A stretch of 64,000 nt of DNA, from positions 620,001 to 684,000 of the forward strand of contig NZ_FOQO01000001.1 of NCBI RefSeq assembly GCF_900113765.1, written 5' to 3'. The position numbers and the translations under genes are program-made. This document shows positions 17,649-46,085 of this stretch, piece after piece. Within the stretch, counting starts at the first letter, position 1; every line of letters begins with the position of its first letter. The notes beneath the pieces are model-generated. The model was not told the origin of the DNA. It did not search any database and was given only the letters and a program-made list of their open reading frames with translations. The DNA comes from Parapedobacter indicus (lineage in GTDB: Bacteria > Bacteroidota > Bacteroidia > Sphingobacteriales > Sphingobacteriaceae).

Positions 17649-18767
17649 ATGAATAGACAAGGCTACATCTTTTTTTTAGCGTCGTTTTTTAGCGTTCTCT
17701 TTTTAAACGCACAGGAAAATGGACAGATGAAATGGCATGATCCGTCAAAAGGAGATTTTCGAACGGTACATAACCAGTTGTGGCATGGATCAGAAATCGC
17801 TTGTTATTACGACAGGCTACCTGCTAAGGCAGAAAATGAGGTAAGGAAGGAGGTCTGGAATCTTTCCAGAAATGCAGCAGGTTTAAAGCTTGTGTTCACG
17901 ACAAATGCGACTGAAATTACGGTCAGATACGTTGCTTTAAAGAAGAATTACGCGATGGATCACTTTCCTGCTACAGGAGTTTCCGGTATTGATCTTTTTG
18001 CCACGAATGACGATGGGACCTGGACATGGGCCAATGGCTCGTATAGCTTCAAGGACACGATAACCTATACTTATTCAGGATTGGATTTGGATAGAGATCG
18101 CTATCGTAACAGAAGAGAATTTCACCTTTATTTGCCACTATACAATACCGTAGAGTGGTTGGAAATAGGCGTACCTTCAGCGAGTTCCTTTACATTCGTT
18201 CCGGTTGCGGATGAGAAACCGGTTATCGTTTACGGAACATCCATTGCCCAAGGGGGGTGCGCTTCAAGGGCTGGCATGGCATGGACCAATGTGTTGGAAA
18301 GAGCCATTCATATACCGGTGGTCAATCTTGGTTTTTCGGGCAATGGCCGGCTGGAGAAAGGGGTTATAGATCTTATCGCAGCGAACGATGCCCGCATTTT
18401 TGTCCTTGACTGCTTGCCAAATCTTAGCGGTGAAATAGAAGCGATTGTTTCAAAGACTCGTGAAGCGGTGCGTACGATTAGCGCACGCCATCCACAAACG
18501 CCAATTATTCTTGTCGAACACTCAGGTTACCTGGAAAATAGGATGAATACCGGAGTGGCCAAGAGAATTCGATCGGTCAATGACGAGTCATTAAAAGCCT
18601 ATAAAGCGCTAAAGTCGGAGGGAGTGGAGAACCTTTACTATTTGAAGTATGAAGACATCGGTTTGAACCAATATGATTCGGTAGACGGTGTCCATCCCAC
18701 GGACGGGGGCATGCTGAAGTACGCTCAGGCATACGCGAAGCTCATCCAGGAAATTCTAAATAAATAG
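17649..18767 (+). CDS. Secreted SGNH/GDSL esterase with GxDLY-type N-terminal domain
   Basis: This 372-residue protein has a signal peptide ending near NAQ (residue 21). Residues about 25-180 form a beta-rich accessory domain containing GVSGIDLFATNDDGTW, the GxDLY-type motif found N-terminal to Lipase_GDSL_3 domains. The catalytic domain starts with YGTSIAQGGCASR (Ser), then LGFSGNGRLEKGV (Gly/Asn) and SVDGVHPTDGGML (Asp/His). It probably removes acetyl or other acyl groups from a glycan in the periplasm or at the surface. It lies 135 bp upstream of the ECF sigma gene on the same strand and is likely the first enzyme of the utilisation locus. Confidence 0.88.
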   Translation: MNRQGYIFFLASFFSVLFLNAQENGQMKWHDPSKGDFRTVHNQLWHGSEIACYYDRLPAKAENEVRKEVWNLSRNAAGLKLVFTTNATEITVRYVALKKNYAMDHFPATGVSGIDLFATNDDGTWTWANGSYSFKDTITYTYSGLDLDRDRYRNRREFHLYLPLYNTVEWLEIGVPSASSFTFVPVADEKPVIVYGTSIAQGGCASRAGMAWTNVLERAIHIPVVNLGFSGNGRLEKGVIDLIAANDARIFVLDCLPNLSGEIEAIVSKTREAVRTISARHPQTPIILVEHSGYLENRMNTGVAKRIRSVNDESLKAYKALKSEGVENLYYLKYEDIGLNQYDSVDGVHPTDGGMLKYAQAYAKLIQEILNK

Positions 18768-18902
18768 GAATTTATGGGCAAACAATTTGAATCGCATCCG
18801 TTGCAGGAAACTCAGTATTTATATAGATTTGACGTACTTTGCAAAAACTTGTGCAACAAAGATTAAATGCCAATGTAAACGAAGCGCCATTATAAATTAA
18901 GC

Positions 18903-19466
18903 ATGATTAACGAATTTAGGGAGGGTCATGAGGACTCATTTAATGCACTATACAAAGAATTTTATCGCCCTTTACGTTATTTCGCACTTAAGATAGTCGA
19001 CGACGAGCAGGAAGCTGAAGATATCGTCACGGAAAGTATGGTTAAACTATGGCAGCGCAGGACCCGGTTTTCAGACATACAGCAAATAAAGTCATTTCTT
19101 TTTACCATCACCCAACATGCTGCTTTGAATGTGCTGCGCAACCGGCGGCTGCAGAGCGATAAACGAAAATTTGTGGCAGAAGAGGCCGAATCTGCGAATA
19201 ACACTACTTTTTTTGATGAATTGGTATTGACCGAACTGATCTCAAAAATAGCGGCGGAAGTTGAAAAACTCCCCAAAGCGCAGCGGGAGGTATTCAAGTT
19301 AAGTTATTTTGAAGGATTCAGTACGGAAGAGATCCGAGACTCACTCGGGATGAATCCCGCAGCTGTCTATACGAACCGCAAGCGTGCTTTGCAATCGTTG
19401 CGCAATTATTTTAGACACCTGGACCTTTACCTCTATCTCCTGATAAGCTGGTTACTCATTAACTAA
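18903..19466 (+). CDS. ECF RNA polymerase sigma factor (SusCD-linked, locus 1)
   Basis: This 187-residue protein has region 2 at about residues 8-75 (FNALYKEFYRPL, DDEQEAEDIVTESMVKLW) and region 4 at about 120-175 (LPKAQREVFKLSYFEGFSTEEI). The C-terminus ends in a hydrophobic stretch (LYLYLLISWLLIN) common in Bacteroidota ECF factors of this type. It is followed by fecR, susC and susD, so it should switch on this operon when the SusC signalling domain reports ligand through FecR. A TACTTTG sequence about 70 bp upstream is one base short of the usual promoter. Confidence 0.93.
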   Translation: MINEFREGHEDSFNALYKEFYRPLRYFALKIVDDEQEAEDIVTESMVKLWQRRTRFSDIQQIKSFLFTITQHAALNVLRNRRLQSDKRKFVAEEAESANNTTFFDELVLTELISKIAAEVEKLPKAQREVFKLSYFEGFSTEEIRDSLGMNPAAVYTNRKRALQSLRNYFRHLDLYLYLLISWLLIN

Positions 19467-19575
19467 TGCCAGGCATTACAGTAGTTGTAATTTTTTTTGA
19501 TTGATTTTCAGTTAGATATATCCATTTTGCCAAATGGAAGTCAGATTTTGGCGAATAGGGTGTTATGGTGTCGTA

Positions 19576-20769
19576 ATGATGGATAAGGCCGAACATATTG
19601 CCCAGTTAATTGAGAAGCAGATCGCCCAAACGATAACCGACGAAGAGCGTGCAGAACTTAATCATTGGATGGCCCAAGATGCGCATCGCGAGGGTTGGGT
19701 ACGTCGGATCAGCGAGGAACGTTTTATCGTACTGGAAGCAGGCCGATTTCTGTCTCCGGATGCCAACGACGTATGGCAGAATGCGAGGTTGACAAAGGAA
19801 CTCCGAAAGAGCAGGAGGCTCCTTACCTTCAAACGGTGGCTACCTTATGCTGCGGCTTGCCTCCTGGCAATGGTTATGGCCACTTGGTTTTACCAGTATC
19901 GAACAACTCCTCCCTCTGAATCTAAATTTGTGGAAGCGCAGGATATAAAAGCCGGATCAAACAAAGCAGTGCTTCGGTTTGCGGATGGCACAACCGCTGA
20001 GTTAAGTCCATTGCAGTCAGGTGTTGTGTTTGACGGAACGGCGATCAGTTACACAAATGGCGACCGACTACTTATCGGTAACGCTACGGACCCTGTGGCA
20101 GATAAGTTATCGGCCTCCGACTATGTTACCCTGAGTACACCGAAAGGGGGACAATACCACGTGATACTTTCAGATGGAACGCAGGTTTGGCTTAATGCCG
20201 CGAGCAGCCTGAAACATACACCTTCGTTTTCTTCATCCGTTCGTACCGTGGAATTGGAGGGTGAAGCTTACTTTTCCGTTGCAAAGAGCCGGGATTCAGC
20301 GGGAAACCCGAAACCATTTGTGGTGAAAACAAAAGGTCAGGAAATTAGGGTGCTGGGTACGGAATTCAACGTTTCAGCTTATCCCCAGGCCCATACTATA
20401 AAGACTACGTTGGTAACGGGGGGTGTCCGGATCGATCCGGTTAGGGGTGAGGGCATGCTGTTGGCGCCAAATGAACAGGCAACGCTATCCGCAAATTATG
20501 TGCTTGGCAAACAAACCGTAGACGTCAGTGATGCGATTGCTTGGAAAGAAGGAAAGATTTCCCTGAACGGTAAAACCATCGAAGAAGTTATGGATGAGTT
20601 ATCCCGCTGGTATGACCTTGAGATTACCTTTGAAGGTACCATGCCCAGTGGAAAGTTCTTTGGCAGGGCTAACCGAAGCAGTAATCTGTCGGTAGTGTTG
20701 GCGCTCCTTGAGAATGCACAACTCTCGTACCGGATGGAAGGAAGAAAACTAATTATCTCAAAACAATAA
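19576..20769 (+). CDS. FecR-family anti-sigma factor (locus 1)
   Basis: The start is set at the double ATG at 19576/19579 because the earlier in-frame codons do not resemble the family; the protein has about 397 residues. The cytoplasmic N-terminal helical domain (residues 1-85) holds the sigma factor. A single transmembrane segment follows (LPYAAACLLAMVMATWFYQY), then the periplasmic FecR domain (STPKGGQYHVILSDGTQVWL, VEVTLVTGGV-like strand) and a C-terminal STN-like region ending in RKLIISKQ. It is expected to receive the signal from the STN domain of the downstream SusC. Confidence 0.93.
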   Translation: MMDKAEHIAQLIEKQIAQTITDEERAELNHWMAQDAHREGWVRRISEERFIVLEAGRFLSPDANDVWQNARLTKELRKSRRLLTFKRWLPYAAACLLAMVMATWFYQYRTTPPSESKFVEAQDIKAGSNKAVLRFADGTTAELSPLQSGVVFDGTAISYTNGDRLLIGNATDPVADKLSASDYVTLSTPKGGQYHVILSDGTQVWLNAASSLKHTPSFSSSVRTVELEGEAYFSVAKSRDSAGNPKPFVVKTKGQEIRVLGTEFNVSAYPQAHTIKTTLVTGGVRIDPVRGEGMLLAPNEQATLSANYVLGKQTVDVSDAIAWKEGKISLNGKTIEEVMDELSRWYDLEITFEGTMPSGKFFGRANRSSNLSVVLALLENAQLSYRMEGRKLIISKQ

Positions 20770-20840
20770 ACCAATTTATAACTTTAAAAACTTGATGATT
20801 ATGAAAAGAGACCACTAAACGAAATCTAACAAACTGAAAA

Positions 20841-20862
20841 GGAGAGTGGTGGTACACTCCCC
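20841..20862 (+). promoter_or_regulatory. Leader hairpin between fecR and susC (locus 1)
   Basis: GGaGAGTG pairs with CACTCcCC around a 6-nt loop, with one A-C mismatch, in the 239-bp gap between fecR and susC. No T-tract follows. The second locus has a hairpin in the same place (53345-53383), so an mRNA processing or attenuation role is possible. Confidence 0.5.
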
Positions 20863-21008
20863 TTGAAGTTCGGATATCTGCTATATCCAATTGCGATTAA
20901 CTAACATAGTTTACTATCCAAACGCTGTAAACTTACAAATCTTATGCATAATAGCAAAAGAATGCATTTCAATTGCGTTTAGTTTACGGCGTAAAACAAT
21001 AGACCTTA

Positions 21009-24000
21009 ATGAATATCATTTATGTATTCCGAGTGATGAGATTAGTTGCACTCCTTTTATTTTGTGGGTTTTTACAACTCAGCGCAGCCAGTTATTCACA
21101 GGAAATTACACTGAAGGGAAACAATATACCCTTAGTATCGGTTTTTAAATCGATCAGCCAACAAACAGGCTACGAAGTAGCGGGTTTTGAGATTTCGTTG
21201 GACAAGGCAAAACCGGTTACGGTTTCGGCAGAACAAATGCCTATCAAGGACTTTTTGCAGTTGATTTTTTACAATCAGCCGTTTACGTACAAAATCGAAG
21301 GACGTACCATATTTGTTGCCGAAAGCCAAAAAGCAATGAAACGGCGAACTGAGAACCGGGCGGGGGCCGTTTCGTTTATTAGTCAACGCGTTGTCACAGG
21401 TAGGGTTACGGATGAACAGGGTAATCCCCTTGAAGGAGTTACGGTTCACCTCAAGAATACCGAGACAACCACCACAACAAACGCCACGGGAACGTACCAG
21501 ATTACTGTATCTCCAGCCGATGCCAGGTTGGTTTTTTCAATCGTAGGTTTTGAGCAACTAGAGTTGGCCGTTACGCCTTCGGGCATTTTAAATGCAGTTA
21601 TGATACAGGCTGAAAACACGCTGGACGAAGTTGTCGTGATCAGTTATGGTACACAGAAGCGAGAACTTGTAACTGGAGCAATCAGCTCGGTAAGCGCGAA
21701 AGACCTTGAAAAGGCGCCCGCCACTCAAATCGGGCAGCAGTTGCAGGGACGATTGCCCGGCGTTCGCATTAACCAGTCTAGCGGTACACCCGGAGAAGGT
21801 ATTTCTTTTCGAATCCGCGGACAAGCGTCAATCGCAGCGGGAAATGCGCCGTTGGTCGTTATCGATGGCTTCGCATCCAGTACCGGCCTCGAAGCGTTAA
21901 GTCCCGTTGACATCGAGTCCATATCCGTATTAAAAGATGCGTCTGCTACCGCTCTGTATGGCTCACGTGCCGCCAACGGTGTGATACTGGTCACAACAAA
22001 ACAGGCGAAAGCGGGCTTGACAGATGTCGGCGTGAGTGTTTGGCGTGGATTCCAACGCGTTCCGCAGCGGGGGAGACCGAATGTAATGAATGCCCGGCAA
22101 TTTGCACAATACAAAAACGAATGGTACAGCGATCAGGGTTTGGAGGTTCCCGAGCGCTATCAGAATCCGGAACAATATGGTCCAAATGATGGCACAGACT
22201 GGTTCGACGTTTTATTAAACCCGAACGCTGCAACACAGAACTATCAGCTCTCTGTCTCAACGGGAACTGAAAAAGTGAAAACGGCGATTACCGCAGGTTA
22301 CAATAAACAAGACGGTGTGATGTTAAATACCTTTGCAGAACGGTTTACTGCGAGGGCTAATAACGTATTTACCATATCCCCGAAACTCACTTTAGGATTG
22401 AACGTTGCCTCTACGTACCGTAATTCCCAGAATTTACCAACCGATGGAACGTGGAATATTATTTCCGCGGCTTATATTATGGATCCAACGCTGGAGTATA
22501 AAAATCCAGACGGCTCACTTCCCATCGGTTTTTCATCTCCGGGCATGTTTCCCAATCCAAACTGGTATCGGGTACTCATTGAGCGCGAGAATCCGTTGGT
22601 TCGTAAAAATGTATTAGTCAATGCGTTCGGTGAATATCAGCTACTGGAAGGACTTACCTACAAGCTGAAAGCCGACGTAGATGTGGGGGATTCAAAGGGA
22701 CGCTATTGGAGCCCGTCAACCGCCCAAGGGGGGATGTTTACGGCGCCACCAACACCGGCCACAGGATCCTATAGTACTTCTGATTATTCAAACTGGCAGA
22801 TAGAAAATACGTTGAACTATGATCGCCGGTTTAATGAAAAACACAGTGTACAAGCCTTGTTGGGATATTCTGCCCAGAAAATTCAAAGTGAGTCGAGTAA
22901 CATTGTCGGCTCCGAGTTTCCCGATGACGAAATTCCATGGATTACTGCTGCACCCGTCAGAAGAGGGGATGCATCGATCACCGAACTATCGCTTTTGTCA
23001 ACGTTCGGACGACTGAATTATGCATACGACGATAAATATCTTGCTTCGGTATCCCTCCGTAGAGATGGATCGTCACGATTCGGGGATGAAAAGAAATTCG
23101 GAACGTTTCCCGCCGTATCCCTGGGATGGATTGCATCGAAGGAAGGTTTTCTTCAAAAATACTCCGAAACGTTGAGCTTTTTGAAATTCAGGGCAAGTTA
23201 CGGCGAGGTAGGGAACTATAACATCGGAAATTATACCCATTTAAGTGCGATAGGAAATTCAAACTATGCCTTTAATGACGCATTGGTTGCGGGTAAAGCC
23301 AAGTCAAATTTGGGCAATCAACTGTTAACTTGGGAGACTACGGTTCAAGGTGATGTTGGGGTTGACCTCGGGTTGTTTAACGATCGCATATTTTTTGCTT
23401 ATGACTATTACTGGAAAACGACCAATGGATTACTATACGCCGTTGACGTCCCGTTGGCGTCCGGTTTCAGCAGTATCCAATCTAACATTGGTGAATTCGA
23501 ATTCTGGGGTCATGAATTCAGTGTAGAAACCAAGAATTTTATAAAGAACTTCAAATGGAACACGGTGCTAACCTTCTCTCTTGACCGTAATCGGGTTAAA
23601 CAATTGGGAACGGAGAATACGCCGATCGGAGGATATCAGGAAAATGTAGATTTCATTCGAACAGCTGTGGGCCATCCAATCGGTCAATTCTACGGCTATG
23701 TCTACGAGGGAATCTTTATGAATCAGGACGAGCTGAATCAAGGTCCGCATATCAGGGACTATGGTGGTTCCACGATTGGTTCTGTCCGTCTAAAAGATAT
23801 AAGCGGACCTGACGGAGTACCCGATGGCATCATAGATGCCGCATATGACAAAACGTATATCGGCAACCCCAATCCAACGTTCAGTTTTGGACTGACTAAT
23901 CGGTTATCCTATCGGAACTTTGATCTGGATATCCATATGGTGGGTCGGATCGGTGGTGACCTGTTTATGGGCGAGTTATTGTGGACGGAGAACCTGGATG

Positions 24001-24368
24001 GTGTATTTAATGCGAGACCCGAAGTAGCCAACAGATGGCGATCGGAGGATAATCCAGGAGATGGCGTATTTCCCCGGACGAATTCAAATCCGTTGCACCG
24101 CTTCAATAACAGTCATCATATTTACGACGGATCTTATTTAGCCGCCCGGAATATTTCATTGGGGTATACCTTCCAAATTCCACCTAACGGCACCATTAAG
24201 AGCGCGAGGCTATACGTCAATGCCCAGAATGCCTTTATTATTACCAACTACCCGGGGATGAATCCGGAAGCAAGTGAGAGCGGGCTGAATGGCCTGAACG
24301 AAGGGCGGGATTTTGCCCATTATCCCATACCACGCGTATTTACAATTGGCGCCGATTTTAAATTTTAA
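21009..24368 (+). CDS. SusC/RagA-family TonB-linked outer-membrane transporter with STN domain (locus 1)
   Basis: This 1119-residue protein has a signal peptide ending near SYSQ; the second Met at 21036 could be the true start. A secretin/TonB short N-terminal (STN) domain spans about 40-105 and signals to FecR. A carboxypeptidase-like beta domain begins at VTGRVTDEQGNPLEGVTV (about 129-205). The plug has the SusC motif LDEVVVISYGTQKRE and IESISVLKDASATALYGSRA. The barrel ends in ADFKF. With the SusD lipoprotein 9 bp downstream it would import oligosaccharides or another large ligand. Confidence 0.96.
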   Translation: MNIIYVFRVMRLVALLLFCGFLQLSAASYSQEITLKGNNIPLVSVFKSISQQTGYEVAGFEISLDKAKPVTVSAEQMPIKDFLQLIFYNQPFTYKIEGRTIFVAESQKAMKRRTENRAGAVSFISQRVVTGRVTDEQGNPLEGVTVHLKNTETTTTTNATGTYQITVSPADARLVFSIVGFEQLELAVTPSGILNAVMIQAENTLDEVVVISYGTQKRELVTGAISSVSAKDLEKAPATQIGQQLQGRLPGVRINQSSGTPGEGISFRIRGQASIAAGNAPLVVIDGFASSTGLEALSPVDIESISVLKDASATALYGSRAANGVILVTTKQAKAGLTDVGVSVWRGFQRVPQRGRPNVMNARQFAQYKNEWYSDQGLEVPERYQNPEQYGPNDGTDWFDVLLNPNAATQNYQLSVSTGTEKVKTAITAGYNKQDGVMLNTFAERFTARANNVFTISPKLTLGLNVASTYRNSQNLPTDGTWNIISAAYIMDPTLEYKNPDGSLPIGFSSPGMFPNPNWYRVLIERENPLVRKNVLVNAFGEYQLLEGLTYKLKADVDVGDSKGRYWSPSTAQGGMFTAPPTPATGSYSTSDYSNWQIENTLNYDRRFNEKHSVQALLGYSAQKIQSESSNIVGSEFPDDEIPWITAAPVRRGDASITELSLLSTFGRLNYAYDDKYLASVSLRRDGSSRFGDEKKFGTFPAVSLGWIASKEGFLQKYSETLSFLKFRASYGEVGNYNIGNYTHLSAIGNSNYAFNDALVAGKAKSNLGNQLLTWETTVQGDVGVDLGLFNDRIFFAYDYYWKTTNGLLYAVDVPLASGFSSIQSNIGEFEFWGHEFSVETKNFIKNFKWNTVLTFSLDRNRVKQLGTENTPIGGYQENVDFIRTAVGHPIGQFYGYVYEGIFMNQDELNQGPHIRDYGGSTIGSVRLKDISGPDGVPDGIIDAAYDKTYIGNPNPTFSFGLTNRLSYRNFDLDIHMVGRIGGDLFMGELLWTENLDGVFNARPEVANRWRSEDNPGDGVFPRTNSNPLHRFNNSHHIYDGSYLAARNISLGYTFQIPPNGTIKSARLYVNAQNAFIITNYPGMNPEASESGLNGLNEGRDFAHYPIPRVFTIGADFKF

Positions 24369-24377
24369 TTCCGACGA

Positions 24378-25919
24378 ATGATGAAAAAGACAATATTTTA
24401 CACGTTCTTCACGATCTGTTTATTGAGCTCTTGTGGTAAAGAATTTTTGAAGCTTTCTCCCCAAACCACCGTGACTTCCGGGTCATTTTTTGAAACCGAA
24501 TCTCATTTTGATCTTGCGTTGGTAGGCGTATACACGCAATTGCGTGGAATAGTTTCTGCCGGGCATTACATGGATGAAATGCGATCTGATAATAGTTTTT
24601 TCCGCTACTATGCACCAGACAGAGGGCCGGCAAACTGGGTAGAAGACATCATACAATGGACAGACCAATCCCAAACCACCGTCGTAAATAATCGTTATTA
24701 CAGCGATTATCAGGGTATTTCCCGCGCAAATGCCATCTTAAATCGATTGGATAATTCGTCGCTGACAGATGAGGCCAAAACGCGGATTTCCGCTGAAACG
24801 CTTTTCTTAAGGGCTTTCTATTACTTTGATTTAGTGACGCATTATGGAGGGGTTCCTTTGTACCTCAACGAGGTGGTAGATGAAGCCTCCGCGTATCAAG
24901 CACGGGCATCGGTTGAGGAGGTGTACCAGCAAATTGTTGCCGATTTAGAGAAGGCTATACCGCTATTACCCGTAGTATCTGCGTTCCCGCAATCGGGGAG
25001 GGCAACCAGAGGAGCCGCGAAGATGTTATTAGCAAAGTCATTTATGTCCATGCCACTCCGGGATTATGCCAAGGCGGAGATTGAGCTGAGAGATGTTACC
25101 AACATGAATTATGGTTTGCTTGATCGTTACCTAGACAATTTCAACCCGGCAACGAAGAACAACAAGGAATCCATTTTTGAAATACAGTACATGGAAGGGG
25201 ACGACGGGCAGCAAAGTGATTTTATTTATTCAATGCTCCCTAAAACAGCCAATACGGCTGTTGCCACCGGCATATCGGTTAATAATGTGGTAGCCGGTGG
25301 TTGGAATGTTCCAAATCAGGGATTAATCGATTCGTATGAATCGGGCGACGAACGATTACCTGCCTCGGTGAAAATTATGGAAGGTACGCTAAATGGTGGT
25401 TCGTTATCTACCGACCCTGTTACCTATATCGCGATTAAAGATATCGGAGGCTATTCGCCCCAGTCTGGTAATGTCTATTTTCCATTCGTTGCGAAATATT
25501 TGCATGGTCCATATAGTAAACCTTTTAATACGGGTCAAAACTGGCCGGTATTCCGCTATGCAGACGCATTGTTGCTAATGGCCGAATGCTTGGTTGCACA
25601 GGGAAAGGGTGATGAGGCATTACCGTTTTTAAATGCGGTAAGAAAGCGGGCCGGCCTCTCAGATTTGTCGGTGGCCACGGTAGACAACGTTTTGCTCGAA
25701 CGACGCCATGAATTGGCATTTGAAAACCATCGGTGGACCGATCTCATCCGGAACGGTAAAGCGATCGAAGTCATGTCGGCCTACGGTGCTGAAATGAAGC
25801 AGCGGTATGATTTTCTTCCCGAAGCTTCCTTCAACGTAACCGAGGAACGGTTGATATATGCAATTCCCTTCAGAGAAACTCAGATAAATCCCCAACTGGT
25901 TCAAAATTCTGGCTACTAA
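24378..25919 (+). CDS. SusD/RagB-family surface lipoprotein (locus 1)
   Basis: This 513-residue protein has a lipobox LLSSC at about residue 19, followed by GKEFLKLSPQT. It shows the TPR-rich SusD fold, with ISAETLFLRAFYYFDLVTHYGGVPL near residue 150 and the C-terminal ERRHELAFENHRWTDLIR and YAIPFRETQINPQLVQNSGY motifs. It forms the ligand-capturing lid over the SusC barrel. It lies 9 bp after susC. A strong intra-operon hairpin follows its stop codon. Confidence 0.96.
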   Translation: MMKKTIFYTFFTICLLSSCGKEFLKLSPQTTVTSGSFFETESHFDLALVGVYTQLRGIVSAGHYMDEMRSDNSFFRYYAPDRGPANWVEDIIQWTDQSQTTVVNNRYYSDYQGISRANAILNRLDNSSLTDEAKTRISAETLFLRAFYYFDLVTHYGGVPLYLNEVVDEASAYQARASVEEVYQQIVADLEKAIPLLPVVSAFPQSGRATRGAAKMLLAKSFMSMPLRDYAKAEIELRDVTNMNYGLLDRYLDNFNPATKNNKESIFEIQYMEGDDGQQSDFIYSMLPKTANTAVATGISVNNVVAGGWNVPNQGLIDSYESGDERLPASVKIMEGTLNGGSLSTDPVTYIAIKDIGGYSPQSGNVYFPFVAKYLHGPYSKPFNTGQNWPVFRYADALLLMAECLVAQGKGDEALPFLNAVRKRAGLSDLSVATVDNVLLERRHELAFENHRWTDLIRNGKAIEVMSAYGAEMKQRYDFLPEASFNVTEERLIYAIPFRETQINPQLVQNSGY

Positions 25920-25944
25920 CGGTTCCGGAATGGGTAACCCAGTC

Positions 25945-25969
25945 GGCCACACCAATTTTTGGTGTGGCC
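25945..25969 (+). promoter_or_regulatory. Intra-operon hairpin between susD and the 982-residue enzyme
   Basis: GGCCACACCAA pairs perfectly with TTGGTGTGGCC around a 3-nt TTT loop, giving an 11-bp GC-rich stem. No U-tract follows, so full termination is unlikely. It could protect the susCD 3' end or partly uncouple the downstream enzymes. Confidence 0.65.
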
Positions 25970-26002
25970 TAGGAATGGTATTTCCCAATTAACTCCGATG
26001 TA

Positions 26003-28951
26003 ATGAAAAATTTCACCCTATTATTCCTTTTTGTCTTTGCGTTGATACATGCGTACGCAAATGAGCATAAAGACGTTATCATCGAAAACAACTACTTTCG
26101 TTATTCCGTCGGCGCAGATGGCACGAATCTTTCTTTTGTAGACAAATCTACCGGAACGGACTTTCTTGACCACCGAACCACTTCCAAAATCGCATCCCTG
26201 GTTATCGATGGGCAATCATTGGTTGCCGAATCGGTATCCTATCAACGCGGCCAATTGGAGATCGGTTTTGGGAGTGGAGTCGGAAAAGCGCGTGTGAAGA
26301 TTAGCGGAGAACCGGATCGAATGGTCTTTAGGGTCGTCAGCGTTCCCGACCGTGCCGAATCTTTTACCATCATCAATATTCCCCTGACACTGGATGGACA
26401 ACCCTACGAAGCATTTTCGGCATGTGTGCTTTCCATGAATCTCTTTACGCATGTACGGCAGCTGCCACCGCTGCAAACACATTTGTGGGCGCAGTGCTAT
26501 GCGCGGTTTGGATTCGAAGGGGCAGAATTTGTACTACTTGGCCTACCCCAGGAAAAAAACCTGCCCGTCATCCGTGATGTAATGGCCAACGCCAAAGACA
26601 TACCGCTTTCCCGGGAAGGTGGCGCTTGGGCCCAACTTAACAAGGAGGGGTATGGCTCGTACCTGATGAACTTCGGAACACTAACGGAAGAAACAGTTGA
26701 TGAATGGATTGAATTGTGTAAATCACTGGGGTTTAATCAGATAGATAGTCATGGAGGCGGAGACTTTTTTGAATTCGGCACCCTGGAACTCAACCAAACA
26801 AAATGGCCCGATGGATGGGCATCTTTTAAACGGATCAATGAGAAACTGCATGCCAATGGAATATCACACATTTTTCATACGTATGCATTTTTTATCGATA
26901 AGACATCACGTTACGTTACTCCGGTTCCCCATGAAGACCTGGGGTATGCGGGTACATTCACCCTCGCGGCGCCGCTAGATAAAGCGGCAGACGAAGTAGT
27001 GGTAAACGAGTCGACGGCCGATATTTCTACCGTCACGGGCTTTCATACCGAAAATAGTGTTACACTACGCATTGGAGATGAGTTGATTGAGTTCACTGGT
27101 GTTACCAAAACGGCCCCCTATAAATTCATAGGTCTTAAACGTGGGGCAAATGGTACCGTGCCCGCTTCACATCAGGTGGGGAGCATCGGTTATCACCTGA
27201 GCGAGCGCTTCGGAAGGTTTGTGCCGGGGCCAAACACCAAACTGTTCGATGAAATCGCAAAAAAGCATGCTGATATCGTAAATCAATGCGCCTTCGATGG
27301 AATTTACCTGGACGCGATTGATGGCAGTGCGGTGCTGGGGGGTAAGGACGATTTTTGGTATTACGGTTCAAAGTTTATTTTCGAGATGGCGCGACACCTG
27401 AAGCGTCGGGTAGGCATGGAAATGAGCTCGATGGTTCATCATTGGTGGCATTACCGGTCGCGATGGCAAGCGTGGGACCGACCTGTCCGGGGCTATAAAC
27501 GTTTCGTTGATATTCATCTCGCGTCCATAAAAGCGCCAAGTCTTTTCCTGCCCGATCAAATCGCGTCCAATGAATGGGAACACGGGATCTGGCGTGGTCA
27601 TTCTCCCCTGATTGATAAATATGCCGGTGTCGAAAACGGACAAACCAAACTTCCACTTCATTTAGGCTGGTGGGGCAACCAAACATGGGATCCCCCGCAG
27701 GTTGAACCCACTTTCCCCGATGATATTGAATACCTCGCCACCAAGATGATTGCAAACAATGCGGGATTCTCTCAATTGGGTGGTGTTGACTCGGCCACGT
27801 TGGCCAAGAACCCTCTTTTTAAACAAGCAGCAAATATCCTCAAGCAATATGAGACATTGCGACATCAACATTATTTCAGCGACAGCGTGCTTAGTCGGCT
27901 TCGCCAGCCCGGCAAGGAATTTACCTTGTTCAAAGAGTTGGATGGAGGATGGAATTTTAGGCCCATTACGTATCGCAAGCACAAAGTAGCTGGGAACGGC
28001 CACCCGACGGCTTCCTGGGTGGTAGCTAATGAATTTGAAAAGCAACCGCTAATGCTTCGGATCGAACCCTTGATGTCCGTCAAATCCTACGACGATCCAT
28101 CGGGTATCGTCCTGACGGATTTTTCCGATACGCAGCAATTTGACAAAGCAATCCGTTCAACAGGAGTTTCGGCTAGCCTGGCAACGGCAACCGAGCGGAC
28201 AGGCAGTGGCGAGGTTGCAGGAGTTTTGATCGGAAAAAACGAAGGTGCGTCGCCTAGGGAGGGGGCATACGTTAATTTTGAAAACAAATACGATTCAATC
28301 GTAAACCTATCCGGGCATCAGGGGCTAGGTGTCTGGGTTAAAGGCGATGGTGGAGGTCAACTCCTTAACCTGAGTGTCAGAAGTCCGTTGCATATTTCGC
28401 ACGGAGCGCACGGCGATCACTTTATAAAAATCGATTTTACCGGATGGAAATACTTCGAGCTGGTGGAGATCGAATCGTCTGCAATCAGCGACTATATGTG
28501 GCCGGATGACTCACATTTTTACGTATATGACTCCTATCGGCATACCGTCGATTTCTCCGCCATTGAGTCACTCCAATTATGGTATAATAATTTGCCGGAA
28601 GGAAAGGAAGTTAAAACGATAATTGGTCCTGTTAAGGCACTTCCACTTGTTTCCACTACGATTAAAAATCCGTCGATAACTGTCGGCGGCAAGAAGATTG
28701 TCTTTCCCGTAACGATGGAATCGGGAATGTACCTTGAATTCAGGTCTGCGGACGATTGTAAACTATATGGCTCTAAAGGGGAACTTATTCAAGAAATCCA
28801 CCTAACGGCAGACATCCCGGAATTGCAGACAGGAAACAATGAGGTCCAGTTTTCATGCGAAGGGCCCCATGACGTTAATCCCCGTGTTCAAGTTACGGTC
28901 ATCAATGAAGGTGCCCCGCTGGAAAATGCCCACAATTCAACTATAAAGTAA
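26003..28951 (+). CDS. Large secreted TIM-barrel glycoside-hydrolase-like protein, family unassigned
   Basis: This 982-residue protein has a signal peptide ending near AYA (residue 19). An N-terminal beta-sandwich spans about 25-190. A barrel-like region spans about 215-600, with DEWIELCKSLGFNQIDSHGG, FDGIYLDAIDG (Asp437, a candidate catalytic acid) and SMVHHWWHYRSRW. Inside it, about residues 330-400, is an inserted small beta domain with GDELIEFTGV and GLKRGANGT, a pattern I associate with phage tail-fibre segments. A C-terminal beta-sandwich of carbohydrate-binding type (about 690-880, GLGVWVKGDGGGQLLNL) follows. It is the only obvious glycan-cleaving enzyme of the locus. A GH clan with Asp/Glu on barrel strands is inference and the family is not recognised. 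Confidence 0.85.
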   Translation: MKNFTLLFLFVFALIHAYANEHKDVIIENNYFRYSVGADGTNLSFVDKSTGTDFLDHRTTSKIASLVIDGQSLVAESVSYQRGQLEIGFGSGVGKARVKISGEPDRMVFRVVSVPDRAESFTIINIPLTLDGQPYEAFSACVLSMNLFTHVRQLPPLQTHLWAQCYARFGFEGAEFVLLGLPQEKNLPVIRDVMANAKDIPLSREGGAWAQLNKEGYGSYLMNFGTLTEETVDEWIELCKSLGFNQIDSHGGGDFFEFGTLELNQTKWPDGWASFKRINEKLHANGISHIFHTYAFFIDKTSRYVTPVPHEDLGYAGTFTLAAPLDKAADEVVVNESTADISTVTGFHTENSVTLRIGDELIEFTGVTKTAPYKFIGLKRGANGTVPASHQVGSIGYHLSERFGRFVPGPNTKLFDEIAKKHADIVNQCAFDGIYLDAIDGSAVLGGKDDFWYYGSKFIFEMARHLKRRVGMEMSSMVHHWWHYRSRWQAWDRPVRGYKRFVDIHLASIKAPSLFLPDQIASNEWEHGIWRGHSPLIDKYAGVENGQTKLPLHLGWWGNQTWDPPQVEPTFPDDIEYLATKMIANNAGFSQLGGVDSATLAKNPLFKQAANILKQYETLRHQHYFSDSVLSRLRQPGKEFTLFKELDGGWNFRPITYRKHKVAGNGHPTASWVVANEFEKQPLMLRIEPLMSVKSYDDPSGIVLTDFSDTQQFDKAIRSTGVSASLATATERTGSGEVAGVLIGKNEGASPREGAYVNFENKYDSIVNLSGHQGLGVWVKGDGGGQLLNLSVRSPLHISHGAHGDHFIKIDFTGWKYFELVEIESSAISDYMWPDDSHFYVYDSYRHTVDFSAIESLQLWYNNLPEGKEVKTIIGPVKALPLVSTTIKNPSITVGGKKIVFPVTMESGMYLEFRSADDCKLYGSKGELIQEIHLTADIPELQTGNNEVQFSCEGPHDVNPRVQVTVINEGAPLENAHNSTIK

Positions 28952-28970
28952 ACAAAAAACACATTAAATT

Positions 28971-30140
28971 ATGGCTTATTTGATCAAAGAAGAGAGCAAA
29001 ACACGGATTGATCGTGTCAAAACATTGCTGCAGCAGCAGGACCTGGATGCCGCATTGATTTATTACGATGAGTTCAATATTGGCAATGGCTGGTACTTAA
29101 CCGGATGGTGCCCGCAATTTGAGAGCGGTGCCGTCTTGGTGCCACGGCAGGGAGATCCGCTGATTCTTGGTGGACCTGAGAGCGAACCCTTTGCTAAATT
29201 GGACAGTCAGATTACTGAAACACGCAATTTTCCGGTGTTTATGGTGCCGGATGAAGAATACCCAAATGCTGAAATCATTGATTTTGGACAATTATTTTCT
29301 GAATTAAACAAAAAACTGGGCAGTGTAAGGCGTATTGGTCTCGTCGGAGCCGATCGTATGCCCATGGGATGTTACCGACAGATTGAAGACGGATTTGCCG
29401 GAGTGACGTTGGTCGACATCACGAGCAGTTATGTGGCGCTGCGCTTTGTGAAATCGGTATGGGAGCGGGAGCAGATCCGGCAGGCGTTTGGATTGGCCGA
29501 TCACGCGTATCAGGCGATGAAAGGCGAGATCAACGTAGGAGTCAGCGAGATTCGCGTAGCTGCCGCCGGTGAATATGCGGTGCGCAGTCGGGGAGCAAGT
29601 GGATTCGGTTTCGGGACAATAGTCGGGAGTGGCATCCGCTCCAATGCCGTTGTTCCGACCGCCAGCTCCAAACCGTTGTCGGCAGGCGAATTGGTGATGG
29701 TGGGCATCTCTCCCAAAGTGAATGGATATGCCGGGGTGGTAGGCGATGTGATTCCCGTCGACGGCCGTTATAGCGCTGCACAGAAAGAATGTGTAAAGAT
29801 CCTGAAAGAAGCCTTTCGTCTTACGAAGGCACAACTAGCGATTGGCGCCAAAGGTCACGAAATTGATGCGCCGGCGAGAGCCTACTTTGAGAAGAAAGGA
29901 CTGTCAAAATACCTGGTTTGCCCATTTGCGCATACCATCGGTCTGCACGAAGCCGAGTCGCCTTTTTTTGGTCCGCAGAGTGCCGATGAATTGCGAGAAG
30001 ACATGATGGTTTGTATAGATGTGAGTTTTTTTGGGCATCCGGAATTCAATGGGGTACGTATCGAAACCGGATATGAAATAACCACGGGTGGCCCCGTGCC
30101 GCTCAGCCCCGCGATGGACGCTTTATTCATGGAGGATTAA
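28971..30140 (+). CDS. M24-fold (creatinase/Xaa-Pro peptidase-like) protein lacking metal ligands
   Basis: This 389-residue protein has no signal peptide. Residues about 10-150 form the creatinase N-terminal domain and about 165-385 the pita-bread domain, with PFAHTIGLHEAE, ELREDMMVCIDVS and VRIETGYEIT. Of the five usual metal ligands, the first Asp is Gly (LVMVGISPK), the second is not in register (GYAGVVGDV), the TxEPG Glu is Asp (CIDVS), and only the His and last Glu remain. The catalytic His of creatinase also appears absent (GIRSNAVVP). It may have a metal-free or novel activity. It sits in the locus 1 operon, 19 bp after the large enzyme. Confidence 0.85.
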   Translation: MAYLIKEESKTRIDRVKTLLQQQDLDAALIYYDEFNIGNGWYLTGWCPQFESGAVLVPRQGDPLILGGPESEPFAKLDSQITETRNFPVFMVPDEEYPNAEIIDFGQLFSELNKKLGSVRRIGLVGADRMPMGCYRQIEDGFAGVTLVDITSSYVALRFVKSVWEREQIRQAFGLADHAYQAMKGEINVGVSEIRVAAAGEYAVRSRGASGFGFGTIVGSGIRSNAVVPTASSKPLSAGELVMVGISPKVNGYAGVVGDVIPVDGRYSAAQKECVKILKEAFRLTKAQLAIGAKGHEIDAPARAYFEKKGLSKYLVCPFAHTIGLHEAESPFFGPQSADELREDMMVCIDVSFFGHPEFNGVRIETGYEITTGGPVPLSPAMDALFMED

Positions 30141-31076
30141 GTGAAACAGATGATGACAAGCAAACCAGGTGATACGGCTGCTACGACAGCCGTATCACCC
30201 TTCGATATCGTCTTTGGCTTCGATATGGAAACGGATATCGGATCGTATACTACCTTTTACGAAGGCGTACGCCACGGCACACAGCCCTTGTTGGACATCC
30301 TGGCTGAGCACCATATTCCAGCTACTTTTTACTGGACCGGACATGCCGCCGAACACAATCCGGAAATGGTACGGCATGTGCAGCAAGCCGGCCATGAAAT
30401 TGGATGCCATGGATTACTCCATGAGACACTGGGAGATCCAATTTTTCCCCTTCCCAACAATTGGCCGGTGTTGCCTTCGGAAGTTGCCGGACGGCTGGAA
30501 GAAGCCACGCGCATTATTCACTCCATTTGCGGTGAATACCCGGTGAGCTTCCGGTGTCCGCGACTCTGGGGCAGTACGCAGGTGGTGAATGTGTTAGAGT
30601 CGTTAGGTTATGTCTCAGACGCTTCTCTTCCGTTGTATTTCTACGGCGAACCGATCGTTCCCTATCACCCTTCGTCGACGGATTGGACCCAACAGGGGGA
30701 TATGAAACTGGTAGAAATCCCCAATTTCTGTGACCTGAGTGCACCGAGTAGCGATCCGTATCAGCGGGATCGGGACCAATGGCCACTTTTCCGGACCCAA
30801 TCGGCGCTGGCATTGGTGGAAAAGGCAAATGCCTTTATCGACTATGTGTCGGTCCGGGGTCACCGTCCTGTATTGTGTTTCTATTTCCATCCCTGGGAAT
30901 TTCATCCGATGCCACAAGGGGGGATTGACTTTGGTGAATGTGTGGTTACGCCGCAACCGTTTATCGTAGAAAACTGCGGGCAATATGCACTGGAACAATT
31001 CAATGCGTTATGTGAGCTTCTGAAGGGGCAGGGAGCGCGGTTTATTACCGCCAAAGATCTCGCCAGCGAATATTAG
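30141..31076 (+). CDS. NodB-type polysaccharide deacetylase/cyclic-imidase-like hydrolase
   Basis: This 311-residue protein has no signal peptide. The GTG at 30141 has GGAGG 5 nt upstream and abuts the previous stop; the ATG at 30150 is an alternative. The NodB fold is seen in VFGFDMETD (catalytic Asp), PATFYWTGHAAEHNPEMVRH and EIGCHGLLHET with the His-x-x-x-His metal pair. The Asp-Met-Glu version of motif 1 and the cytoplasmic location recall the PuuE/imidase-like branch more than secreted chitin deacetylases. It probably removes an N- or O-acyl group, or opens a ring, in an imported intermediate. Confidence 0.85.
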   Translation: MKQMMTSKPGDTAATTAVSPFDIVFGFDMETDIGSYTTFYEGVRHGTQPLLDILAEHHIPATFYWTGHAAEHNPEMVRHVQQAGHEIGCHGLLHETLGDPIFPLPNNWPVLPSEVAGRLEEATRIIHSICGEYPVSFRCPRLWGSTQVVNVLESLGYVSDASLPLYFYGEPIVPYHPSSTDWTQQGDMKLVEIPNFCDLSAPSSDPYQRDRDQWPLFRTQSALALVEKANAFIDYVSVRGHRPVLCFYFHPWEFHPMPQGGIDFGECVVTPQPFIVENCGQYALEQFNALCELLKGQGARFITAKDLASEY

Positions 31077-31098
31077 CTAAAGGCCTAAATAATAGCGC

Positions 31099-31422
31099 AT
31101 GGTTATTCGTAAATCATTTGTAATAGAAGCCCGTGAAGGTCTGCTGGAAATTTATATTCAACGGCATAACCCCATCTGGCCGCAACTTCGGGACGTGCTT
31201 ACGGCCCACGGTGTGCGAAACTATTCCATCTTTCACCGGCCGGGGACACATCAGCTCTTTGGCTATTTTGAGATTCGTGACGAGTCGTTGTTTGCGCAGC
31301 TCGCACATCATCCCATCTGTAAAGACTGGTGGCTCCATATGACCGAAGTGCTGGTATGTGAACAAGCCGATAGTATCAAAGGCAAGGAAGAACTATTGGA
31401 GGAAATTTTCCATTTAAATTAA
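31099..31422 (+). CDS. rhaM: L-rhamnose mutarotase
   Basis: RhaM interconverts the anomers of L-rhamnose. This 107-residue protein matches the family length and shows RHNPIWPQLRDVLTAHGVRN near the N-terminus (His and Trp of the active site), a FGYFEIRDES strand and CKDWWLHMTEVL with the paired Trp. It lies in the locus 1 operon with a RhaT-type transporter. No rhaA, rhaB or rhaD gene was found in the window, so the sugar may be modified rhamnose, a related deoxyhexose, or be finished by genes elsewhere. Confidence 0.9.
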   Translation: MVIRKSFVIEAREGLLEIYIQRHNPIWPQLRDVLTAHGVRNYSIFHRPGTHQLFGYFEIRDESLFAQLAHHPICKDWWLHMTEVLVCEQADSIKGKEELLEEIFHLN

Positions 31423-31427
31423 TACCT

Positions 31428-32405
31428 ATGAATATAACGGAAATGCTTGCGGAATTTCAGCGAGCAGGCAGACGAACGCATTTGATAGGCAGCCCGGATC
31501 GAGGTATCGTGGTTGCCCTGGATTTAGAAGGAAGGATGTATACGGTGTTAGACGGCGAGGTAATCAATCGGGTGAATTCCGAGGCGATTGCGGAATATAA
31601 CCTAGAGACGCCGTATCTCAATCCGGGAGGGGATGGCCTTTGGCCCGCCCCCGAAGGTACACGCTTCGGATATCAATATGCCTCAGGCGAGTGGCGTGTG
31701 CAACCTGGGATCCAATCTGCGCGCTATCGGCTGATCGAAGTAGACCAGTGTGCGGCTACAATTGCCGCAGAAATCAACCTCATCAATAACCTAGGCATAG
31801 GCATTCCGGTACTTTTCAAGCGCTGTATATCGCTGGATGATCAACCCGGTAAGCTGAGCGTAACCGTAGTTGAACGTATCACTTACTTAGGAACGCGCAT
31901 TCTCTTACCTTCTGAATTCCTGCTTGCTCCGTGGACACTTTGCCAATTCGACTGTGGTCCCGGCTGTCATGTATTATTTCCGGGAAGTGACAAGACCGCT
32001 ATGTGGGACCTTTATGAGGAGACCATTTCGGATAGATGCCGTTGGCACGACGGTAACTGCATCGTGCCTACGGACGGCTCCAGTCGTTTCCAAATTGGAC
32101 TGAGTCCGGAGATCCCCTGGATTGAATTTTGCGACCCTGCGCGCAAGCTAACCGTAAGACGTCAGGCGAGCATGCCGCCCAAAGGGCAATCGTATATTGA
32201 TATCCGAGATGCAGATCCGGCGACCGAGCCCGATCCCAGGGGCGTACGGTACAGCGTGTACGGTGACCCATCGGGGTTCATGGAAATCGAGGCGGCGGGC
32301 GGATGTCCGAAAGAACTGGTTCCCAACCAGGAACTGAGTGTGTCTGTCACCACAAGCTATTCGTATCAGCAGCATAACACATCATCTGAAATATGGAACA
32401 ACTAA
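31428..32405 (+). CDS. Galactose-mutarotase-like beta-sandwich protein, function unknown
   Basis: This 325-residue protein has no signal peptide. Alternating beta-strands with GGDGLWPAPEG (about 67-77) and LGIGIPVLFKRCISL (about 123-137) suggest the aldose-1-epimerase-like supersandwich seen in DUF4380/DUF6786-type proteins. The family assignment is tentative, and no clear pair of catalytic His residues was identified. It starts 5 bp after rhaM and overlaps the transporter start by 13 bp. Its place between a mutarotase and a sugar symporter suggests it binds or epimerises the imported sugar. Confidence 0.8.
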   Translation: MNITEMLAEFQRAGRRTHLIGSPDRGIVVALDLEGRMYTVLDGEVINRVNSEAIAEYNLETPYLNPGGDGLWPAPEGTRFGYQYASGEWRVQPGIQSARYRLIEVDQCAATIAAEINLINNLGIGIPVLFKRCISLDDQPGKLSVTVVERITYLGTRILLPSEFLLAPWTLCQFDCGPGCHVLFPGSDKTAMWDLYEETISDRCRWHDGNCIVPTDGSSRFQIGLSPEIPWIEFCDPARKLTVRRQASMPPKGQSYIDIRDADPATEPDPRGVRYSVYGDPSGFMEIEAAGGCPKELVPNQELSVSVTTSYSYQQHNTSSEIWNN

Positions 32406-33433
32406 TCGGTATCATTTATCATTCAATCGGGGGATTTTCGTCGGCTAGCTTTTATGTCCCTTACAGCAAGGTGCAAAAATGGGCGTGGGGTACGTATTGG
32501 ATTGTATTGGGGTTCATCGCGTGGATGGTTATGCCCACGATAGGGGGAATGCTTACTACCGATGATCCGTTTGCTATATTAGGCGCCGTAACCCTGAATA
32601 GCAAGCTGTGGACGTATGGATATGGTTTCCTTTGGGGATTTGGTGGCTTATTGTCCGGTTTGGGTCTTCGGTATTTAGGTCTTTCACTTGGGCAATCGGT
32701 ATCATTAGGTGTTTCGGCAATTGTAGGTACGCTTGTGCCGGCCATAATGGGCGGCAAGTTCCATCTGCTTTTCACCACCTATTCGGGGAGCATTATCTTA
32801 CTTGGCTTCCTCATCTGTATTGTGGGAATCGCGCTATGCGGCTACGCTGGAATTTTGAAAGACCGAAAACTGACAACGGATCAAAAGCAAGCTTCCGTCA
32901 AGGAATTTTCTGCATTTAAGGGATTTGCAATGGCCATAGCGGGCGGGATATTCAGCGCATGCATGGCGCTGGCAATTCATGCCGGCTCTTCGATTGCGGA
33001 AGCCGCAGCAAGTTTTGGCACCGCGAATGTGTTTGTCAACATACCTATTTTTATACTTGCCCTCGCCGGTGGTTTTTCTTCCAATCTTATCTACAATGTT
33101 ATTTCCAGCGTGAAAAATAGGACATACGGCGATTACGTGATGAATCCGAGATCTACGTTGTTCAGGAATTATTTTCTCGCCCTATTAAGCGGTATCATGT
33201 GGTACTGCCAGTTCTTTTTCTATGGTATGGGGGCAACAAAAATGGGTGACTATGAATTTGCAAGCTGGAGTATTCATATGTCGTCCATCATTATTTTTAG
33301 TAATCTATGGGGGCTGTATCTAAAAGAGTGGAAACTCGTTGATAAAAAGACATTTATATGTCTATGGATAGGGATATTGTTACTGATTACCTCGGTGCTT
33401 GTCATCGGATGGGGGAATTTTGTATCCGATTGA
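32393..33433 (+). CDS. rhaT: RhaT-type L-rhamnose/proton symporter
   Basis: This 346-residue inner-membrane protein has ten hydrophobic segments and length close to E. coli RhaT (344). The N-terminal GGFSSASFYVPYSKVQKWAW and GFLWGFGGLLSGLGLRYLG segments follow the RhaT pattern. It would move L-rhamnose or a related sugar from periplasm to cytoplasm. It is the last gene of the locus 1 operon and overlaps the preceding gene by 13 bp. Substrate specificity beyond the family is not shown by sequence. Confidence 0.88.
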   Translation: MEQLIGIIYHSIGGFSSASFYVPYSKVQKWAWGTYWIVLGFIAWMVMPTIGGMLTTDDPFAILGAVTLNSKLWTYGYGFLWGFGGLLSGLGLRYLGLSLGQSVSLGVSAIVGTLVPAIMGGKFHLLFTTYSGSIILLGFLICIVGIALCGYAGILKDRKLTTDQKQASVKEFSAFKGFAMAIAGGIFSACMALAIHAGSSIAEAAASFGTANVFVNIPIFILALAGGFSSNLIYNVISSVKNRTYGDYVMNPRSTLFRNYFLALLSGIMWYCQFFFYGMGATKMGDYEFASWSIHMSSIIIFSNLWGLYLKEWKLVDKKTFICLWIGILLLITSVLVIGWGNFVSD

Positions 33434-44424: not shown

Positions 44425-44434
44425 GATAATGTAT

Positions 44435-45358: not shown

Positions 45359-46083
45359 GTAAGTTTTTCAAATGAGACAGCCTGCCGGTCGATCAGGCAA
45401 AATGCATTGGGATGTAACGATAAAAAAGAGGCCGGAAGGTGACTCGTGATTTTTCCGGAAAATAGGTCCCTTGTTGCTTTCTCCTTGTGTTTACCGGTGA
45501 TCAGCAGGATAATCTGTTTTGCCTGCAGGATGTCGGCCATACCCAGGGTATATCCGTAGGCTGGTTTCGCTGTCATGTCGGCCACCATGGCATGCTGTAG
45601 GGATTGGCCGGATAGTTCGGCCACGTGGCAAGTGGCCTGCAGACCGTCTGACGGCTCGTTGAAAGCAATGTGGCCGTTCACGCCGAGGCCCAATATGCAC
45701 AGATCAATGGGGCCGGAACGGGAGAGTTCCTGCTGGATGCGGGTGCATTCTTTGGCCGGATCTGCCGCGTCGCTCTGGAAGGCTAGGTAACGATCGCGGC
45801 TGATGCCCAAGGGTTTTATCAGCTGAGTCTGTAAATATGTTTCACAGCTTGCCGGATGGTTTGGGGGAAGACCACCCCATTCGTCCAGTTTAATGAGCTT
45901 CATCTGGGCGAAAAGCCCGGGACGTTGCCCCGCTTCGTGATGAAGCAGGGCGTACGTCCGGCTTGGCGACCCTCCGGTTGCCGCACAAAGCAGGGAGTCC
46001 GGTTTCTGCGCCAACTGTGCCGTAATAGCGTCGCAGGCCCGTTGGCTCATGGCTTCCTGACTATCGTAATAGGAGATGTACAT
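45355..46083 (-). CDS. Glucosamine/galactosamine-6-phosphate deaminase-isomerase family protein (locus 2)
   Basis: This 242-residue protein has the NagB/AgaI fold. The phosphate-binding loop is AATGGSPSRTYALL, the active-site Asp is in KLDEWGGLP, and the loop LGLGVNGHIAFNEPSD contains the catalytic His and Glu. The length is nearer to AgaI-type galactosamine-6-phosphate isomerases than to the roughly 266-residue NagB. It would convert an amino-sugar 6-phosphate to a ketose 6-phosphate and ammonia. It overlaps the ROK kinase gene by 4 bp and lies 2 bp after the DUF1080 gene. Confidence 0.9.
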   Translation of the reverse strand: MYISYYDSQEAMSQRACDAITAQLAQKPDSLLCAATGGSPSRTYALLHHEAGQRPGLFAQMKLIKLDEWGGLPPNHPASCETYLQTQLIKPLGISRDRYLAFQSDAADPAKECTRIQQELSRSGPIDLCILGLGVNGHIAFNEPSDGLQATCHVAELSGQSLQHAMVADMTAKPAYGYTLGMADILQAKQIILLITGKHKEKATRDLFSGKITSHLPASFLSLHPNAFCLIDRQAVSFEKLT

Positions 46084-46085
46084 GA

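Follow-up and report, generated by a model that had tools for sequence, protein, structure and literature searches.

Between positions 17649 and 33433 of a 64,000-nucleotide stretch of Parapedobacter indicus DNA (the window), a locus resembling a polysaccharide utilization locus (PUL) combines genes for an extracytoplasmic function (ECF) sigma factor, FecR, SusC and SusD with genes for a 982-residue secreted protein, a metal-less M24-fold protein (P0002), a NodB-family hydrolase, RhaM, a DUF6786 protein and RhaT. We tentatively propose, at somewhat less than even confidence, that this locus frees a deoxyhexose-like sugar derivative and brings it into the cell, where a C-N bond (amide or lactam) would be hydrolyzed in the cytoplasm; all of the enzymatic steps, as well as the substrate class, are putative. 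Every gene that an earlier reading of the window from its sequence (the first-pass annotation) had named in this region was recovered in place.

A cassette shared with other genera

Loci were retrieved with the 982-residue protein as the query and compared gene by gene. The order SusC-SusD-982-M24-NodB-RhaM-DUF6786-RhaT was preserved in Membranihabitans marinus (L021) and in a Chitinophagaceae metagenome-assembled genome (L020), and because these eight genes recur in the same order in both loci, the cassette is more than a chance association. Identities to the window proteins were 63-69% for SusC, 66% for SusD, 70-73% for M24, 69-72% for NodB, 51-57% for RhaM, 46-51% for DUF6786 and 62-71% for RhaT; the 982-residue protein was 62-63% identical, with 53% for the second of the two copies of its gene in L020. 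ECF and FecR genes also lie upstream of SusC in both loci, the sigma gene being reversed in L021, and some of them are nearer to other regulators in the window than to those of the cassette itself. The first-pass annotation's view of a coherent, self-regulated unit was supported, and the set is conserved together outside its own genus.

The distribution of the cassette is patchy. Orthologues of the M24 protein were found in one of 395 sampled phylum genomes besides its own (G252, Membranihabitans). G252 was the sole carrier among 348 genomes of its family and 396 of its order, and none was detected beyond G1601 in 99 genomes of that genome's order. NodB orthologues were confined to the P. indicus genome among 247 genomes of its class. 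A search of viral contigs found no relatives. Such patchy occurrence at high identity suggests that the cassette spread horizontally. The co-occurrence that the first-pass annotation had proposed to look for in Sphingobacteriaceae was thus observed in two other genera, but it is not a trait of that family, as the only genome with the M24 orthologue among 400 of the order was that of P. indicus itself. A congener (G008), locus L022 and two Planctomycetes loci (L023 and L024) encode a homologue of the 982-residue protein as the only cassette member, among different neighbours, and no M24 match was detected in the G008 genome at 1e-15.

The amidohydrolase beside the M24-fold protein differs between sister loci

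Searching the genomes of L022 and L024 for M24 relatives and reading their neighbourhoods revealed a wider module in two independent loci. In Prolixibacteraceae (L049), the order is SusC-SusD-M23/PKD-GHL6-M24-creatininase-DUF6786-MFS-FGGY kinase; in Planctomycetia (L050), it is M24-RhaT-creatininase-DUF6786-RhaM-XylR-type sugar regulator. DUF6786 of L049 is 47% identical to that of the window, and the L050 proteins are 50% (RhaT), 42% (DUF6786) and 42% (RhaM) identical. All five loci retain the M24 fold and DUF6786, and four of them have RhaM and RhaT. An amidohydrolase stands near M24 throughout: NodB in the window, L020 and L021, and a creatininase-like protein in L049 and L050. The latter, a 246-residue member of the creatininase-family amidohydrolases, has preserved the motifs LE.HG.HM...VD and ETSLM, which are seen in creatininases of solved structure. 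That a creatininase-family amidohydrolase replaces NodB next to M24 in sister loci points to C-N bond hydrolysis, and this exchange strengthened the interpretation given in the first-pass annotation. A creatininase also adjoins an M24/creatinase-type gene in Microvirga (L036), which sets a precedent for such a pair in the degradation of amides. No creatininase copy was found on the plasmids searched. Both L020 (20576-22111) and L049 (9846-11900) have a putative glycosidase of the GHL6 type adjoining the module.

The NodB-type hydrolase itself matched its family and has no signal peptide, in keeping with the cytoplasmic location originally assigned to it. H90 and H94 align with the metal histidines of the HpPgdA-like structure 3qbu (GHEVGAHGYSHE), and D28 is a candidate for the aspartate of the Asp-His-His metal triad of NodB/CE4-type deacetylases. 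All three residues are invariant among the orthologues. One distant plasmid-borne relative sits in a small-amide context, among genes for peptide transporters, gamma-glutamyltransferase, RidA and asparaginase, and another sits among oxidoreductases.

The M24-fold protein lacks canonical catalytic residues and retains other invariant positions

P0002 was aligned with prolidases, two canonical relatives, two putative creatinases (L036 and L038) and both orthologues. The metal-binding positions D-D-H-E-E read G245, V256, H321, D350 and E365 in P0002, and the same G-V-H-D-E in both orthologues, so that none of the three carries the five ligands of M24 metallopeptidases (prolidase/aminopeptidase P). 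The first-pass description of a metal-less M24-fold protein therefore holds, with both leading aspartates replaced (by G245 and V256) and no signal peptide. The column of the superfamily catalytic histidine (H232 type) holds valine in P0002 and both orthologues and histidine in the two putative creatinases. The loss of metal-ligand residues excluded a canonical metallopeptidase role, and the valine at the catalytic position excluded a creatinase role; P0002 scored 21 bits against the DoeA model (cut-off 575) and 24 bits against creatinase 1chm. H321, E327, E329, D350, R363 and E365 are nevertheless invariant across five M24 sequences, including the distant relatives in L049 and L050, which argues for a working pocket rather than random decay, judging from the aligned residues. 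On a Leisingera plasmid (L039), a TRAP transporter/galactarate catabolic cluster includes an M24 protein whose metal positions are partly degenerate (aligned as D, D, H, K, E), so that M24-like proteins occur in a further sugar context.

The 982-residue protein appears to resemble retaining alpha-glycosidases in its predicted fold

Neither Pfam nor NCBIfam placed the 982-residue protein in a family; there was only a CBM_11 match below threshold, around residues 755-837. A phmmer search of PDB sequences found no relatives. A profile search of the PDB gave one weak match, at an E-value of only 0.034, to a glycoside hydrolase family 36 (GH36) enzyme of Flavonifractor plautii (8x1b); the sequence thus does not place the protein in GH36, GH101 or GH129. 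An AlphaFold2 model built from seven sequences had a mean predicted local distance difference test score (pLDDT) of 61, with a confident N-terminal beta-sandwich, a moderately confident first half of the barrel and a poor remainder; a barrel-only model brought no improvement (mean pLDDT 55). The predicted layout starts with the N-terminal beta-sandwich, continues with a TIM-barrel-like domain (about 200-640) that is interrupted by a small beta domain (about 316-400), and ends in C-terminal beta domains. With this low-confidence model, Foldseek ranked GH101, GH36, GH129 and GH31 enzymes at the top (E 1e-10 to 1e-7), and VIA-align gave Z 13.6 over 360 residues (root-mean-square deviation, rmsd, 12.4) for the full model against the GH36 alpha-galactosaminidase 9ayu and Z 11.2 over 179 residues (rmsd 3.8) for the barrel alone against 8x1b. 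With GH13 enzymes at Z 9-10, the assignment to a family lacks sharpness.

In clan GH-D, the nucleophile is the aspartate after barrel strand 4. D437 lies where predicted strand 4 ends. It is shared by 13 of 13 sequences covering the position, including 780-residue relatives at about 20-25% identity, and is a candidate nucleophile on the basis of the model; D503, close to predicted strand 6, is no more than a candidate acid/base. W482 and H483 are identical in 14 of 14 sequences. Taken together with the partly confident model, the fold appears to resemble clan GH-D-like retaining alpha-glycosidases. The first-pass annotation, which recognized no family for this protein, was right as regards Pfam and NCBIfam and is amended as regards the fold.

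Further observations concern this protein and its relatives. The small beta domain that separates barrel strands 3 and 4 (window 26948-27205, residues 316-401) resembles Rcc01698_C, a domain found in gene transfer agents (Pfam E-values of 3.6e-6 for the relative L014 and 0.0043 for the window), and the baseplate protein of phage JBD30 (8rk3; Z 9.9, rmsd 1.9, 75 residues, 27% identity). In the congener G008 (L012/L013), the homologue is clustered with GH20, an SGNH-alpha/beta-hydrolase fusion, a BNR protein, an AspA/AstE deacylase, a pyridoxal phosphate (PLP) enzyme, DHDPS, a RidA-like protein (from its sequence), M81/MlrC, short-chain dehydrogenases/reductases and a NanM-SSF fusion, a set that would suit the catabolism of amino-acid-linked or sialic-acid-like compounds. 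A paralogous ECF/FecR/SusCD locus in the P. indicus genome (L019, contig C23) encodes an 813-residue relative next to GH31 and GH123 genes.

The sugar-side genes do not form a standard rhamnose pathway

RhaM matched its family and conserves Tyr19 and His23, as in E. coli YiiL (1x8d) and across the loci, at 87.2 bits against the TIGR02625 equivalog cut-off of 99.6. A whole-genome search of P. indicus, in which positive controls were detected, found no RhaA (PF06134); the absence of a rhamnose isomerase, first remarked for the locus, thus extends to the entire genome and excluded a classic rhamnose operon. Neither the L020 genome nor G008 has RhaA, and G252 yielded a borderline match only. The P. 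indicus genome further contains weak fucose-isomerase-family matches and four RhaT-family genes, which implies that the RhaT family is not rhamnose-specific. The transported sugar is therefore probably not handled by the standard rhamnose route; no search was directed at a route without an isomerase. The mutarotase-like character earlier ascribed to DUF6786 was not confirmed: a profile built from three sequences retrieved no PDB relative.

Gene inventory and flanking features

The genes of the locus are listed in Table 1. From the ECF sigma gene to RhaT (18903-33433), all run in one direction at tight spacing; the gaps from SusC to RhaT are, in order, 9, 83, 19, 0, 22, 5 and -13 bp, the last being the 13-bp overlap of the DUF6786 and RhaT genes. 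The SusC and SusD genes are adjacent, as in SusCD-type PULs (Pfam, NCBIfam), and the ECF factor, FecR and the STN domain on SusC together provide the architecture of trans-envelope control at the gene level (Pfam). Hydrophobic signal-like N-termini were found on the SGNH, SusC, SusD and 982-residue proteins and were absent from the M24, NodB, RhaM and DUF6786 proteins. In the 3' flank, a hairpin-like sequence with one mismatch (AGAAGCCGCCCTG...CAGGACGGCTTCT), spotted by eye and not reported by the repeat finder, may be a terminator.

Table 1 Genes of the P. indicus locus (window positions)
Feature	Coordinates	Strand	Family evidence
SGNH/GxDLY esterase-like, secreted, 372 aa	17649..18767	+	Pfam GxDLY + Lipase_GDSL_3
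ECF sigma factor	18903..19466	+	Pfam Sigma70_r2/r4_2
FecR anti-sigma/sensor	19534..20769	+	Pfam FecR + FecR_C
SusC/RagA TonB-dependent transporter, N-terminal STN	21009..24368	+	TIGR04056 832 bits; Pfam STN 64-103, Plug
SusD-family surface lipoprotein	24378..25919	+	Pfam SusD_RagB
982-aa secreted putative alpha-glycosidase	26003..28951	+	no family; fold matches only
Metal-less M24/creatinase-fold protein (P0002), 389 aa	28971..30140	+	Pfam Peptidase_M24 (1e-30) + Creatinase_N
NodB/polysaccharide-deacetylase-family hydrolase, 311 aa	30141..31076	+	Pfam Polysacc_deac_1 (1e-20)
RhaM/YiiL-family mutarotase	31099..31422	+	Pfam rhaM (1e-22); TIGR02625 below cut-off
DUF6786 protein, 325 aa	31428..32405	+	Pfam DUF6786 (2e-8)
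RhaT-family inner-membrane symporter	32393..33433	+	Pfam RhaT (1e-66); NF010024 388 bits

The SGNH protein, which has a PDB relative (4lhs) and carries the YGTSI and DGVHP motifs, is probably an accessory outside the conserved core. Its gene lies where first annotated and encodes a signal-like N-terminus, but its membership does not extend to the conserved cassette, since the gene is absent from both L020 and L021; a GxDLY homologue adjoins the 982-residue homologue in a congener. On the minus strand at 43150-54404, the window holds a second FecR/SusCD locus with genes for a 3-keto-disaccharide hydrolase-family protein, a GFO_IDH_MocA oxidoreductase, a glucosamine-6-phosphate (GlcN6P) isomerase-like protein, a ROK kinase and a major facilitator superfamily (MFS) transporter.

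Proposed pathway and alternative explanations

In the pathway that we tentatively favour, passage of the ligand through the STN-bearing SusC would be sensed by FecR, freeing the ECF sigma factor and switching on the locus, as expected from the standard architecture. SusC and SusD would capture the ligand, from which the secreted retaining alpha-glycosidase-like enzyme, with D437 as its probable nucleophile, would free a small sugar derivative, perhaps aided in this strain by an SGNH esterase that strips ester groups. RhaT would import the derivative into the cytoplasm, where RhaM, and perhaps DUF6786, would accelerate its anomer exchange; the NodB-type hydrolase would open or remove an amide (N-acyl or lactam-like) group. 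The M24/creatinase-fold protein, lacking the metal pair that is usual in this fold, would be active in the same C-N chemistry.

Several points weigh against this pathway. No enzyme of the locus has a characterized close relative, and the model of the 982-residue protein is weak, with a poorly predicted latter half of the barrel. Not every enzyme of the creatininase and NodB families acts on amides. P0002 has no creatinase-type catalytic histidine, which makes hydrolysis by this protein a guess, and it could instead be a binding or regulatory protein. Its relatives in L049 and L050 are just 24-27% identical to it; at such divergence, the substrates of the shared module could differ.

A broader proposal, possible although doubtful, is that RhaT, RhaM, DUF6786, a metal-less and His-less M24 enzyme with a chemistry of its own and an exchangeable amidohydrolase (NodB or creatininase) form a new catabolic module of Bacteroidota and Planctomycetota that degrades a hitherto undescribed amide- or lactam-bearing deoxyhexose derivative and that is joined in the window to a new GH family. 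If true, this would represent a new sugar-amide catabolic route, give a context to DUF6786 and the metal-less M24 subfamily and provide a candidate new glycoside hydrolase family; the Planctomycetia version would be a compact set of five proteins.

Part of the evidence would also suit an ordinary complex glycan, such as an amino-sugar-rich glycoconjugate, on which the 982-residue enzyme would act as an alpha-N-acetylhexosaminidase-like or alpha-galactosamine-type enzyme, while NodB would de-N-acetylate an imported amino sugar and the M24 protein would be a bystander or binding protein. The F. plautii alpha-galactosaminidase is both the best Z match of the barrel and the weak profile match, GH101 and GH129 enzymes active on alpha-GalNAc rank high in the fold search, GH20 and BNR genes accompany the homologue in G008 as GH31 and GH123 genes do in the paralogous locus, and the next PUL of the window has ROK kinase and GlcN6P-isomerase-like genes. 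We nonetheless consider this explanation rather unlikely: the M24 protein is among the best-conserved of the cassette (70-73%) with no decay, the Planctomycetia module lacks NodB as well as any nearby glycosidase or SusCD, and NodB in the window lacks a signal peptide.

Two further alternatives each appear improbable. In a variant L-rhamnose locus, the enzyme would free L-rhamnose, RhaT would import it, RhaM would swap its anomers and a non-isomerase (oxidative) catabolism would be encoded elsewhere. RhaT and RhaM are clear family members and the YiiL residues are conserved, but the RhaA results in P. indicus, L020, G008 and G252 and the four RhaT-family genes argue otherwise (the oxidative pathway was not searched for), and M24 and NodB/creatininase would be left unexplained. 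Alternatively, a nitrogenous natural-product glycoside or cyclic amide, degraded by ectoine- or creatinine-like catabolism coupled to sugar uptake, could supply its amide part as the real nutrient. The creatininase beside an M24/creatinase-fold protein, the AspA/AstE-type deacylase, PLP enzyme, RidA and M81 genes around the congener homologue, and another M24 pair adjoining ectoine transport genes in Shinella are consistent with this; against it stand the low scores of P0002 to DoeA and 1chm, its missing creatinase catalytic histidine and a window cassette without deaminase, aminotransferase or dehydrogenase.

Comparison with known systems

No description of such a gene set was found in the literature searched, and the Bacteroides thetaiotaomicron BT4240-4250 mucin locus was rejected as a counterpart, as it has no RhaT, mutarotase or deacetylase. 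Ectoine hydrolase EutD/DoeA has the M24 fold and works with a deacylase as its partner in C-N bond hydrolysis; P0002, however, scores no higher than 21 bits against the DoeA model, and its partner belongs to a different family. With the creatininase-creatinase pairs, as in Microvirga, the module shares an M24/creatinase-fold protein next to an amidohydrolase (of the creatininase family in the sister loci), whereas the window has NodB, an M24 protein without the catalytic histidine and the sugar-type genes RhaT, RhaM and DUF6786 in the set. Compared with RhaM/YiiL (1x8d) and RhaT, family membership and Tyr19/His23 are shared, but the genome lacks RhaA and the matches lie below the NCBIfam equivalog cut-offs. 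The low-confidence model of the 982-residue protein suggests the beta-sandwich, TIM barrel and conserved aspartate after strand 4 of GH36 (FpGalNase 8x1b/9awt), GH101 and GH129 enzymes, but the protein differs in its identity of about 10-14%, the lack of a hidden Markov model match, the extra inserted beta domain and a C-terminal CBM11-like region. Like ECF/FecR-controlled SusCD PULs, the locus has ECF, FecR, STN-SusC, SusD, a secreted glycosidase-like enzyme and an inner-membrane symporter in one direction; unlike them, it has no array of several known GH or polysaccharide lyase enzymes but a single unclassified glycosidase-like enzyme together with two cytoplasmic proteins of the amidohydrolase type, and it lacks a kinase, isomerase and aldolase. 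The locus is thus a variant of the ECF-controlled SusCD locus, and its new part is the M24/NodB-or-creatininase/DUF6786/RhaM/RhaT module.

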